NCBI RefSeq assembly: GCF_013030265.1
Contig: NZ_WPZQ01000002.1
Location: forward strand, 372,001-436,000
Direction of reading: 5' to 3'
DNA: 64,000 bases
Source: Ruegeria arenilitoris
Lineage (GTDB): Bacteria > Pseudomonadota > Alphaproteobacteria > Rhodobacterales > Rhodobacteraceae
Part shown: positions 34,185-45,843 of the stretch, piece by piece
Layout: each line of letters begins with the position of its first letter
How positions within the stretch are numbered: position 1 is the stretch's first letter
Made by a program: the position numbers and the translations under genes
The notes under the pieces: model-generated
The model's input: the letters and a program-made list of their open reading frames with translations, nothing else
Database searches by the model: none
Told to the model about the DNA's origin: nothing

Positions 34185-34259
34185 TGGAGCGGGCGAGGCG
34201 ATTCGAACGCCCGACCCTAACCTTGGCAAGGTTATGCTCTACCCCTGAGCTACGCCCGC
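34185..34259 (-). tRNA. tRNA-Gly (anticodon GCC), copy 1, CCA encoded
   Basis: On the minus strand, 75 bases with acceptor stem GCGGGCG / CGCCCGC, D arm TAGCTCAGGGGTAGAGCA, anticodon loop TTGCCAA (GCC) and T-loop TTCGAAT, then T and encoded CCA. Identical to the second copy at 34296-34370; 36 bases separate them. Confidence 0.96.
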
Positions 34260-34295: not shown

Positions 34296-34370
34296 TGGAG
34301 CGGGCGAGGCGATTCGAACGCCCGACCCTAACCTTGGCAAGGTTATGCTCTACCCCTGAGCTACGCCCGC
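34296..34370 (-). tRNA. tRNA-Gly (anticodon GCC), copy 2, CCA encoded
   Basis: Identical 75-base copy upstream (on the minus strand) of the first. The pair is probably one transcript. GCC decodes GGC/GGU, frequent glycine codons in GC-rich genomes, so a doubled gene is plausible for dosage. Confidence 0.96.
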
Positions 34371-44366: not shown

Positions 44367-44413
44367 GAAAAGAAAAACGGCGGTTCCCAGGGAGGAGGAG
44401 GGGAACCGCCGTT
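44367..44413 (-). terminator. terminator of the DUF1127-CcsR transcript, overlapping the last hairpin
   Basis: The minus-strand stem AACGGCGGTTCCC / GGGAACCGCCGTT (44376-44388 with 44401-44413) is followed by TTTTTCTTTTCCC, a U-rich tail. So the sixth CTCC-loop hairpin also acts as the terminator. The opposing uvrD terminator lies 23 bases away. Confidence 0.75.
44376..44413 (-). ncRNA. CcsR-type small RNA hairpin 6 (distal)
   Basis: Perfect 13-bp stem presenting the loop CTCCTCCTCCCT (minus strand; 44389-44400). CcsR RNAs of Rhodobacter sphaeroides carry a conserved CCUCCUCCC in such a loop and are cut from the transcript of a DUF1127 gene. Two of the features recur here. Confidence 0.75.
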
Positions 44414-44420
44414 CTTTTCT

Positions 44421-44453
44421 ACATCAGGACAGGGAGGAGGAGAGCCCCGATGT
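44421..44453 (-). ncRNA. CcsR-type small RNA hairpin 5
   Basis: Stem ACATCAGG / CCCCGATGT with one mismatch, presenting the same CTCCTCCCT loop. Nearly identical to hairpin 3, with one base pair changed, as expected of a duplication that keeps the stem. Confidence 0.7.
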
Positions 44454-44488
44454 ATTCGAACCCGGGTTTGATCCCGGTATGGAGAAGA

Positions 44489-44523
44489 CGCGGCGACGTC
44501 AGGGAGGAGGAGGCGTCGCCGCG
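44489..44523 (-). ncRNA. CcsR-type small RNA hairpin 4
   Basis: Perfect ten-bp stem CGCGGCGACG / CGTCGCCGCG around a loop holding CCTCCTCCTCCCT on the minus strand. Confidence 0.72.
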
Positions 44524-44531
44524 CGCTTTCA

Positions 44532-44564
44532 ACATCAAGGCAGGGAGGAGGAGAGCCCTGATGT
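44532..44564 (-). ncRNA. CcsR-type small RNA hairpin 3
   Basis: Stem ACATCA-AGGC / GCC-C-TGATGT with one mismatch, presenting the minus-strand loop CTCTCCTCCTCCCT. Confidence 0.7.
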
Positions 44565-44597
44565 ATCGGCTTCCGGCATTTGAGGCCGGTATAAAGT

Positions 44598-44629
44598 GCG
44601 GCAGCATCAGGGAGGAGGAGAGATGCCGC
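44598..44629 (-). ncRNA. CcsR-type small RNA hairpin 2
   Basis: Stem GCGGC-(AGC)-ATC / GATGCCGC with a three-base bulge, presenting the minus-strand loop CTCTCCTCCTCCC. Confidence 0.68.
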
Positions 44630-44639
44630 CGCTGAAATA

Positions 44640-44668
44640 CAGACCCTAAGGGAGGAAGAATGGGTCTG
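44640..44668 (-). ncRNA. CcsR-type small RNA hairpin 1 (proximal, degenerate)
   Basis: Stem CAGACCC / GGGTCTG with a loop reading CTTCCTCCC on the minus strand, so one base of the repeated C-U-C-C run is changed. It lies directly after the DUF1127 stop codon. Confidence 0.55.
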
Positions 44669-44689
44669 ATCTCGTTGTTTCTGTTGCGC

Positions 44690-44914
44690 TTAGCGCGCGG
44701 ATTGCTCTTCTGCCGCTTGCATCGCAATGCGGCGGATCATCGAACGGTGCAGGCCCAGATCGGCCAGCTCGCGGTTCGACAACGAAGACAGTTCGTTCAC
44801 GGTCTGGCGGTACATGCGGTGCCGGGCGTAACGGACCTTTACCGCCTCAACCAGTGAAGCAAATCCAAATGTCGGTGCGCTTTTCAGCGCTGTGTGATTG
44901 GTTGCTACAGCCAT
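44690..44914 (-). CDS. DUF1127 small protein, CcaF1-like
   Basis: The 74-residue basic protein has a variable N-terminus (MAVATNHTALKSAP) and a C-terminal DUF1127 domain: RHRMYRQTVNELSSLSNRELADLGLHRSMIRRIAMQAA. In Rhodobacter sphaeroides the DUF1127 protein CcaF1 is cotranscribed with CcsR small RNAs and binds RNA, affecting their maturation. Here six CTCC-loop hairpins follow the stop on the same strand, so the same role is inferred. I chose the ATG at 44914; a longer frame from 45001 adds 29 residues unlike the family. Confidence 0.85.
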   Translation of the reverse strand: MAVATNHTALKSAPTFGFASLVEAVKVRYARHRMYRQTVNELSSLSNRELADLGLHRSMIRRIAMQAAEEQSAR

Positions 44915-45222
44915 TTTCGTAACCCGATTTACTATTGTTGCTGCCGGTGTGTTCCGGCGTTTGCTTGAGGATGAAAATAGGTGAATGCTGCGATTGCACA
45001 ATAGGGTGCGACGTCAATGCTGCTATGCGGCAAGTGCATAGATTGGATGGTGTTTTTGCTTGAACCCCAAAAATCACCTTAAAAATACAGGTTTGAGGTT
45101 GCTTTACCGCAGGGCACCGTTTTCCGATGATTTTTGCCTACACTTTAGATGCCGGAATTTTGGACGGAATCTGTGAAATTCTGTGCGTTCTGTTAGCGAA
45201 GACTCTGCCTAAAAAATGTGCC

Positions 45223-45260
45223 TGGGAAATCATGGGACGCTTCTATGGGAATACATGGGT
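45223..45260 (+). promoter_or_regulatory. candidate MraZ operator, four TGGGN boxes
   Basis: TGGGA (45223), TGGGA (45233), TGGGA (45246) and TGGGT (45256) occur as two pairs with exactly five bases between the boxes in each pair and eight bases between the pairs. E. coli MraZ binds direct TGGGN repeats separated by five bases in its own promoter. The site lies about 580 bases before mraZ, in the leader. Confidence 0.65.
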
Positions 45261-45389
45261 AAGTATCTCGATACTCGAAGCGGCACAGAGATGAGCATGG
45301 CTCGAAGGTGGGTTTATGGGTGATTCGGGTCTGATTTTGAGAACAAAACAAGATCAAGTAAGGCGTGTGATCCGAATCTTTGAAATATT

Positions 45390-45404
45390 TGGGAAATTAT
45401 GGGA
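45390..45404 (+). promoter_or_regulatory. candidate MraZ operator, second pair of TGGGN boxes
   Basis: TGGGA-AATTA-TGGGA at 45390-45404 repeats the ten-base periodicity of the first group. A looser pair TGGGT at 45309 and 45317 (eight-base period) lies between them. Confidence 0.55.
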
Positions 45405-45435
45405 AAAAATGTCCTGCTAAAATGTTGTCTATATA

Positions 45436-45452
45436 TAGTAGTGCTACTACTA
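45436..45452. promoter_or_regulatory. 17-base palindrome in the mraZ leader
   Basis: TAGTAGT and ACTACTA flank GCT, a perfect seven-bp inverted repeat next to TATATA. It lies between the TGGGN boxes and the TTGACA element and may be an operator for an unknown protein or part of a promoter. Confidence 0.4.
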
Positions 45453-45474
45453 AATTTTTGCATATAATGTGTAA

Positions 45475-45503
45475 TTGACAAGATTGGGGTGAGTAATTTA
45501 TCT
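45475..45503 (+). promoter_or_regulatory. candidate sigma-70-type promoter for the mraZ leader RNA
   Basis: TTGACA at 45475-45480 is followed 17 bases later by TTATCT (45498-45503); the -35 is perfect, the -10 weak, as is common in alphaproteobacteria. An alternative is TTGAGG (45520) with TATTGA (45543), also 17 bases apart. Either would put the leader start 235-285 bases before the terminator at 45751-45790. Confidence 0.4.
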
Positions 45504-45555
45504 CTTGTGATCGTTTTTATTGAGGGCAAGCCTCAAGAATTATATTGATTTCCAT

Positions 45556-45790
45556 GAATTCCCATGGCATCCCTTATTCATCCGATGAGGACGAGGCAGA
45601 AGGGGCACCAAACGACCCCGAACCAAAAATACAAGAACAGGTTTCATACAGGCATCTCGCTTTCATCACTCAAGAGATCCGGCGCGCGGGCGAGCAGACA
45701 TCCCCCCAGGTGGCGCGCGCAGCTGGACATCCCGCAAAGCGGGCGAATGCGGCGGGTTGATCAGTGGCAGCAGATCAACCCGCCGTTTTT
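45556..45790 (+). ncRNA. upsM: UpsM-type leader small RNA of the dcw cluster
   Basis: The RNA is inferred from position and its 3' structure: it runs towards mraZ, ends in the intrinsic terminator at 45751-45790 and stops 53 bases before mraZ. In Rhodobacter sphaeroides the dcw leader yields the abundant 206-nt RNA UpsM in this arrangement. The 5' end given is an estimate from the second candidate promoter; an earlier start near 45510 is possible. Sequence identity to UpsM was not tested. Confidence 0.6.
45751..45790 (+). terminator. strong terminator (attenuator) just before mraZ
   Basis: GGCGGGTTGATC (45751-45762) and GATCAACCCGCC (45773-45784) form a perfect 12-bp stem with a ten-base loop, followed by G-TTTTT. 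It lies 54 bases upstream of the mraZ start codon, so transcripts that begin in the leader should mostly end here, and the dcw genes depend on read-through. Confidence 0.88.
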
Positions 45791-45843
45791 AACTTCGGGG
45801 GGCGTGAAATTTAGGTGGGGCGCAAGCGAAAGGGACAGTCGTC

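Follow-up and report, generated by a model that had tools for sequence, protein, structure and literature searches.

A DUF1127-linked array of CcsR-type anti-Shine-Dalgarno hairpins in Ruegeria arenilitoris, with a putative PhaR- and LysR-type composite promoter

Introduction

The CcaF1-CcsR1-4 system of Rhodobacter (Cereibacter) sphaeroides, located at the CIN1 locus and represented in Rfam by RF02791, consists of a DUF1127 gene followed by units of two hairpins with CCUCCUCCC loops and a terminator at the end. The RNA described as RS0680a has two stem-loops (PMC3927594), the published promoter depends on RpoHI/RpoHII (PMC10253847), and the CcsR RNAs are separate species processed by RNase E and by CcaF1 itself. 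In the parts of this literature that were accessible to us, the effects of the CcsR RNAs concern C1 metabolism, the FlhR regulator, glutathione and pyruvate dehydrogenase, and not transporters, and PhaR- or LysR-type promoter elements find no mention there.

An identical loop motif, again on variable stems, characterizes alpha-r14/NfeR1 of Sinorhizobium meliloti (the cuckoo RNA family, RF02344), an sRNA that has three hairpins and is transcribed from a promoter of its own, under repression by NtrC. This promoter carries the box TGCA-N6-GCAT, assigned to LsrB by EMSA and reporter assays, and an NfeR1 with mutations in its three loops failed to lower an ntrB reporter (PMC10746234, in the sections consulted); most of the targets predicted for NfeR1 in rhizobia are likewise transport genes. 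The LsrB homologue VtlR is reported, in the accessible parts of two papers, to activate AbcR sRNAs together with small-protein genes in Agrobacterium and Brucella (PMC7486931, PMC12595884), the former having one sRNA and one small-protein gene under its control and the latter sRNAs and DUF1127 genes. The AbcR sRNAs act mainly on transporter genes, and the sRNA and DUF1127 genes of this regulon are separate. Finally, the MmgR sRNA of S. meliloti, a member of the alpha-r8 family, has a promoter that binds PhaR (AniA) and an anti-Shine-Dalgarno motif in its first loop only, and the consulted part of its description (PMC12542648) does not mention DUF1127.

Here we analyze an array in R. arenilitoris, found in a window of 64,000 nucleotides (the whole stretch of DNA under study), which is most likely a member of CIN1/CcsR.

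Results

The array lies on the minus strand behind a ccaF1-like DUF1127 gene that encodes 74 aa (44693..44914; Pfam PF06568, E = 2e-15) and is flanked by UvrD-helicase and mraZ genes. It occupies about 300 bases and begins about 20 bases past the DUF1127 stop codon. Such hairpin units stand directly 3' of a short DUF1127 gene, on the same strand, in 25 of 25 genomes of the genus, the window's own included.

The 341-nt region 3' of the gene folds at −152.5 kcal/mol (z = −11.4), which none of 100 shuffles equaled. Folding and sequence together delineate six hairpins on the minus strand, at 44640..44670, 44598..44632, 44532..44564, 44489..44523, 44421..44453 and 44376..44413 (hairpins 1 to 6, counted from the gene). 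Five of them present an exact CTCCTCCTCCC loop (44390, 44432, 44502, 44543 and 44610), whereas shuffled sequences held on average 0.94 such 11-mers at one mismatch or less and in none of 100 cases reached five. The gene-proximal loop of hairpin 1, TTCTTCCTCCC, departs from the 11-mer at two places, and was therefore missed by a one-mismatch scan, but retains TCCTCCC. All three pairs of hairpins described below thus have loops of the CCUCCUCCC type, the first loop being a variant. Elsewhere in the genome, exact matches to the 11-mer were found at two places only, both within reading frames.

Two additional small hairpins, delineated by folding and alignment, precede the second and the third loop pair (CCGGC...GCCGG at 44573..44589 and CCGGG...CCCGG at 44462..44477, minus strand), and their CCGG stem is invariant in 22 aligned arrays. 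Hairpin 6 followed by TTTTTCTTTT is a predicted intrinsic terminator (44368..44413, minus strand).

Covariation was examined in 22 aligned six-loop arrays, the window's own among them, using a structure derived from the window sequence, a choice that favors this structure. Standard pairs made up 99.4% of the 1542 pair cells. Changes on both sides occurred in 15 of 71 pairs as compared to 7.3 in shuffles (0 of 500 as high) and in 65 cells as compared to 21.4, and sliding the structure along the alignment left only 0-3 pairs with such changes, destroying the signal. One of the five covariation measures, which counts further pair types, showed no excess (42 versus 41.6 in shuffles). The stems vary in a compensatory manner while the loops barely change, indicating that the loop sequence is what is kept.

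These results confirm what a first-pass annotation, made from the sequence alone, had observed at this locus. Its coordinates, minus strand and DUF1127 identity were correct; the six anti-Shine-Dalgarno hairpins after the gene are real; the differing stems, near-constant loops and compensatory changes in relatives are all present; and the terminator role that it gave to the last hairpin fits the prediction. Its description of the proximal loop as a one-base variant has to be amended to two changes.

The loops of the window array are spaced by 40, 67, 41, 70 and 42 bases, and a similar alternation of about 41 and about 68 is seen in the window and in all 25 genus genomes, dividing the window's hairpins into three pairs. 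Neither this pairing nor the CCGG hairpins had been noticed in the first-pass annotation. The Rfam CcsR1 model RF02791 gave three full-length matches (1-83 of 83), one for each pair: unit 1 (44593..44678, minus strand; 44.5 bits, E = 3.1e-9), with hairpins 1 and 2 as its 5' and 3' hairpins, unit 2 (44485..44567, minus strand; 30.8 bits, E = 3.5e-5), with hairpins 3 and 4, and unit 3 (44372..44457, minus strand; 36.5 bits, E = 6.9e-7), with hairpins 5 and 6. The CcaF1-CcsR layout recognized in the first-pass annotation therefore holds, and the model search it suggested matched each unit over the full length of the model, although at scores below the gathering threshold of 65.3. Since the R. sphaeroides RNA has two stem-loops, six hairpins correspond to three such units as opposed to the four of R. 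sphaeroides, and the earlier contrast of six RNAs here with four described there has to be corrected, having counted hairpins on one side and two-hairpin RNAs on the other.

Six separate CcsR RNAs are ruled out by the paired spacing in the genus and by the three full-length matches. The array is likewise covered by two matches of the three-hairpin alpha-r14 model RF02344 (54.0 and 41.9 bits; cut-off 58.8), which would divide it into two units of three hairpins. This division is less likely, given the paired spacing and the sizes of the genus arrays: among the 25 genus genomes (the window's own included) the array is present in all, with six loops in 20 and eight loops in 5, and eight is not divisible by three. 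The window array thus most likely comprises three two-hairpin units of the CcsR type, as judged from sequence comparison.

Array size was compared more broadly, as the first-pass annotation had also suggested. Among 49 Ruegeria or near-Ruegeria loci (L164-L212), a loose motif counted six loops in 33, eight in 13, seven in two and five in one. Eight loops in four pairs, as expected for CcsR1-4, are present both in Cereibacter johrii (L238) and in Luteovulum azotoformans (L242), which we take to be near relatives of R. sphaeroides. At the family level 149 genomes were searched, 131 of which had a DUF1127 match, and one locus each was examined in 119 (30 returned and 89 fetched, the other 12 genomes being left out). 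At least two loops were found in 95 of these 119 loci, with a range of 2 to 17 in the family as compared to six or eight in the genus, so that six loops is on the low side. Among the 74 family arrays with at least four loops, strict alternation is seen in 37, a mixed pattern in 35 and even spacing in two; pairing is therefore the rule within the genus but no more than a tendency across the family, where odd loop numbers occur in 29 of 95 arrays by the strict motif. The longest array among the 119 loci, with 17 loop motifs, is L281 (genome G090). Locus L010 carries an extra pair of anti-Shine-Dalgarno loops, 42 bases apart, about 550 bases downstream of its eight-loop array, and a DUF1127 paralogue, the second DUF1127 gene of genome G011 (L033), is followed by two TCCTCCC sites 79 bases apart.

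Alignment of the 25 genus loci and loci L038-L041 revealed a highly conserved block of some 90 bases upstream of the DUF1127 gene. It contains a predicted core promoter, TTGTGC ... CCTATTTT (44974..45001, minus strand), conserved in relatives by alignment, and a putative LysR-type (LsrB/VtlR-like) box, CTATGC-N7-GCATAG (45023..45041, minus strand), which ends 21 nt ahead of the TTGTGC. The box reads TGCA-N6-GCAT (T-N11-A), exact in the window, and so has the form of the LsrB box of NfeR1; the VtlR boxes given in the accessible parts of the literature (GCAT-N3-TG-N3-T; CAATGCAGCCATGCA) are not identical to it. With 11/12 as the minimum score, the LysR box occurs in the family at 83 of 95 array loci and also at 13 of 24 DUF1127 loci without an array. 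It therefore seems to be a general mark of DUF1127 promoters rather than of arrays, the latter being marked by a second type of site.

Within the conserved block we noted a GCAGC palindrome, which we took to be PhaR-like, and the PhaR hypothesis was set down before any PhaR target, the phasin region included, was inspected. The candidate operator 1, TTGCCGCATAGCAGCATT (45016..45033, minus strand), overlaps the LysR-type box, and a second PhaR-like site, operator 2 (TGC-N4-GCAGCA; 44984..45001, minus strand), lies over the −35/−10 spacer and has a 4-base instead of a 3-base center. At its core operator 1 reads CCGC-ATA-GCAG, one base off the CTGC-N3-GCAG sequence given for R. sphaeroides PhaR alongside rhizobial forms (PMC12542648, PMC6201568, in part), and operator 2 resembles the PhaR site of the MmgR promoter (PMC12542648).

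The genome has one PhaR gene (PF07879), adjoined by a phasin gene, whose match to PF09361 (E = 2.3e-5) lies at the curated cut-off. The sequence TTGCCGCATTGCAGCATT, which differs from its ccaF1 counterpart TTGCCGCATAGCAGCATT by one base, is located 81 bases upstream of the likely phasin start. The pattern TTGCYGCATNGCAGCATT, loosened at the sole base that differs between these two sites and hence informed by both, has exactly two perfect matches in the 4.6-Mb genome, upstream of ccaF1 and upstream of the phasin gene. In other genera CTGC-N3-GCAG precedes a phasin-like frame in 15 of 20, and 10 of those 15 have two such palindromes 26-30 bases apart; all nine phasin-like frames that were scanned match PF09361, two of them just under the cut-off. 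Among the remaining five genera, a related YGC form is present in one (L353), and the other four lack a phasin-like frame there. A genome scan with CTGC-N3-4-GCAGCA yielded 100 matches as compared to 23 for the reversed pattern, the window site not being among them; six regions with such sites were inspected, and the phaP-phaR region alone was taken further. In several PhaR genes among loci L335-L354 (near position 1940, in the direction of phaR), a GCAGC-type palindrome precedes the PF07879 domain by about 60 bases, an arrangement that fits self-control of phaR.

Across the family, operator 1 scored at least 15/17 in 84 of 95 array loci as compared to 7 of 24 non-array DUF1127 loci (p = 2e-8), and the reversed pattern reached that score in 0 of 119 loci. 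Operator 2 was present in 84 of the 95 array loci and in 5 of the 24 others, at a distance of 34-35 bases from operator 1 in 73 of 76 loci measured. Cereibacter loci carry similar promoter sites (15/17). The exceptions are 11 of the 95 array loci that score below 15/17 for operator 1, and the 7 of 24 non-array loci at 15 or above, some of which are perhaps arrays with other loops. The best DUF1127 match is not always the array gene: the best-match loci of two genomes (G168, G132) were counted as non-array, and both genomes have an array elsewhere, with a 17/17 operator.

Of 395 genomes that are at least 97% complete, 8 lack PhaR (PF07879), and a DUF1127 alignment search retrieved arrays in five of these eight, in three genera; in the same search G130 gave no DUF1127 match, and G176 and G312 gave weak matches without loops. 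None of the five arrays of the PhaR-less genomes has operator 2, and their operator 1 scores do not exceed 14/17, whereas each of them retains the LysR box (CYATGC-N7-GCATRG) with a score of at least 11/12. Either PhaR-type site occurs in 90 of 93 PhaR-positive arrays versus 0 of 5 PhaR-less arrays (p = 8e-7 by genome) or, by genus, in 0 of 3 PhaR-less genera (p = 1.4e-4), p values that are optimistic because the family members are related. The PhaR-positive set of 93 was obtained after removing G043 (L057) and G138 (L054; PhaR not found, genome 84% complete). One PhaR-less genus (G043, G385) retains the operator 1 core CGCATAGCGGCA, so that operator 2 is clearly lost but operator 1 only in part.

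The loops are complementary to strong start sites, and we searched the genome for GGGAGGA, the complement of the loop core, located 3-10 bases before an ATG. There were 100 such sites, as compared to 9 for the reversed pattern; 98 of them lie outside the array and the other two on its opposite strand. We examined the first 70 of the 98 sites by contig order, 12 of which were dropped as frames of less than 70 aa. As a control we used AAGGAGA start sites (110 in the genome), where 8 of 50 were dropped. Parts of uptake systems (ABC, TRAP and TTT), with FadL-type and EamA-type transporters excluded and Pfam cut-offs of 1e-3 for part of the frames and 1e-5 for the rest, were found in 30 of 58 GGGAGGA frames versus 2 of 42 AAGGAGA frames (p = 2e-7), the two control matches being PBP_like_2 and Sulf_transp. 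The GGGAGGA count was 26 of 52 after merging neighbors and 19 of 44 outside contig C14. The same class includes four AMP-binding synthetases (L069, L095, L421, L436), one of them acetyl-CoA synthetase-like, and one acyl-CoA dehydrogenase (L089), while ribosomal-protein and chaperonin genes appeared in the AAGGAGA class. It is plausible that the loops pair with the Shine-Dalgarno sequences of messages, as the first-pass annotation had suggested, and the start-site counts sharpen this idea; the uptake excess could also stem from another cause that gives transporters GGGAGGA start sites. The ccaF1 start itself has no GGAG-type site, in the window and altogether in 28 of 29 loci, from which its own message would be predicted to be spared by the loops. 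Such self-sparing is only weakly suggested, since the first ATG is likewise without a GGAG-type site in 27 of 47 control genes of the window.

Discussion

The PhaR-type operators over the LysR-type box suggest that the locus is likely held off by PhaR, and we lean, with some reserve, towards a CcaF1-CcsR operon that is switched on as PHB granules draw PhaR off, lowering the translation of uptake transporters. As long as PHB is lacking, PhaR would occupy the ccaF1 promoter; once carbon stores are full, granules would titrate it off the composite promoter, and an LsrB/VtlR-type activator, perhaps together with a stress sigma factor, would drive the operon. The array would be transcribed as one message with the DUF1127 gene and cut by RNase E and CcaF1 into three RNAs, the loops of which would mask the start sites of messages for uptake transporters and reduce the translation of these messages. 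Beyond the presence of the motifs, we infer these steps (the single message, its cutting into three, PhaR binding and repression, LsrB/VtlR-type activation and the translational block), partly by analogy with the published relatives.

The main competitor is an ordinary stress-induced CcsR locus, controlled by RpoHI/RpoHII and perhaps by an LsrB-type regulator, in which the GCAGC motifs are part of the LysR site or serve some regulator other than PhaR. We regard this as rather unlikely, but it has substance: RpoHI/RpoHII control is what the consulted literature reports for R. sphaeroides, operator 1 does overlap the LysR box, the center of operator 2 is unusual, and part of operator 1 is kept in one PhaR-less genus. 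It is harder to reconcile with the fact that the sole other exact genome match of the extended motif lies upstream of the phasin gene and that related palindromes precede phasin-like frames in most of the other genera, and with arrays of PhaR-less genomes that have the LysR box but neither operator 2 nor a full operator 1.

The start-site data bear on a different possibility, namely that the loops mimic the anti-Shine-Dalgarno tail of 16S rRNA and act as a non-specific damper or sponge, competing at all strong start sites or titrating GGAGG-rich RNAs. Six near-identical loops and the 98 loop-complementary start sites outside the array, far above the reversed pattern, would be compatible with such a role, but the skew of these sites towards uptake genes and the placement of ribosomal-protein and chaperonin genes in the other start-site class make it improbable. 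We find it hardly credible that the hairpins mainly protect or terminate the 3' end of the DUF1127 message with an incidental loop sequence; the stems are indeed strong and the last hairpin is terminator-like, but loops stay constant while stems vary, such loops follow DUF1127 genes in 95 of the 119 family loci, and the published CcsR RNAs are, in the descriptions consulted, separate processed species.

Returning to the proposed PhaR control, one may tentatively extend the scheme to the Rhodobacteraceae as a family-wide carbon-satiety brake, in which titration of PhaR would release 2 to 17 near-identical loops that shut a TRAP/ABC/TTT regulon marked by the GGGAGGA code; we give this wider version somewhat less credence than the local one. 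The part that we think is new is the PhaR/LysR composite promoter together with the uptake-gene code. A PhaR link, a composite promoter or an uptake code for CcsR was not found in a literature search whose scope did not extend to the main CcsR, CcaF1 and cuckoo papers; the accessible part of an sRNA paper on Ruegeria pomeroyi (PMC4809877) makes no mention of array expression, and that of a Paracoccus sRNA paper yielded only the name R. sphaeroides and nothing on the array. As compared to NfeR1, the window array stands behind a DUF1127 gene and is predicted to be repressed by PhaR. If the scheme is true, stored carbon would be the physiological trigger of the cuckoo/CcsR RNAs and nutrient uptake their regulon, and PhaR would be tied to the control of translation in a large group of bacteria from the sea. 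A common promoter design, a LysR-type activator box with a swapped repressor, would then unite the two branches of these RNAs, the repressor being NtrC in the rhizobial branch and PhaR in the rhodobacterial one. Both halves of the scheme, trigger and regulon, are directly testable in genetically workable strains.

Two further features of the window were noted. Divergent from the array, a long stretch without an assigned gene (45042-45843) lies ahead of mraZ and the dcw cluster on the plus strand; the dcw leader of R. sphaeroides is described, in the source as consulted, to yield the sRNA UpsM, and a similar leader RNA may therefore sit in this stretch. At some distance from the array, two tRNA genes on the minus strand (34188-34259 and 34299-34370) stand 39 bases apart and have identical Rfam scores.
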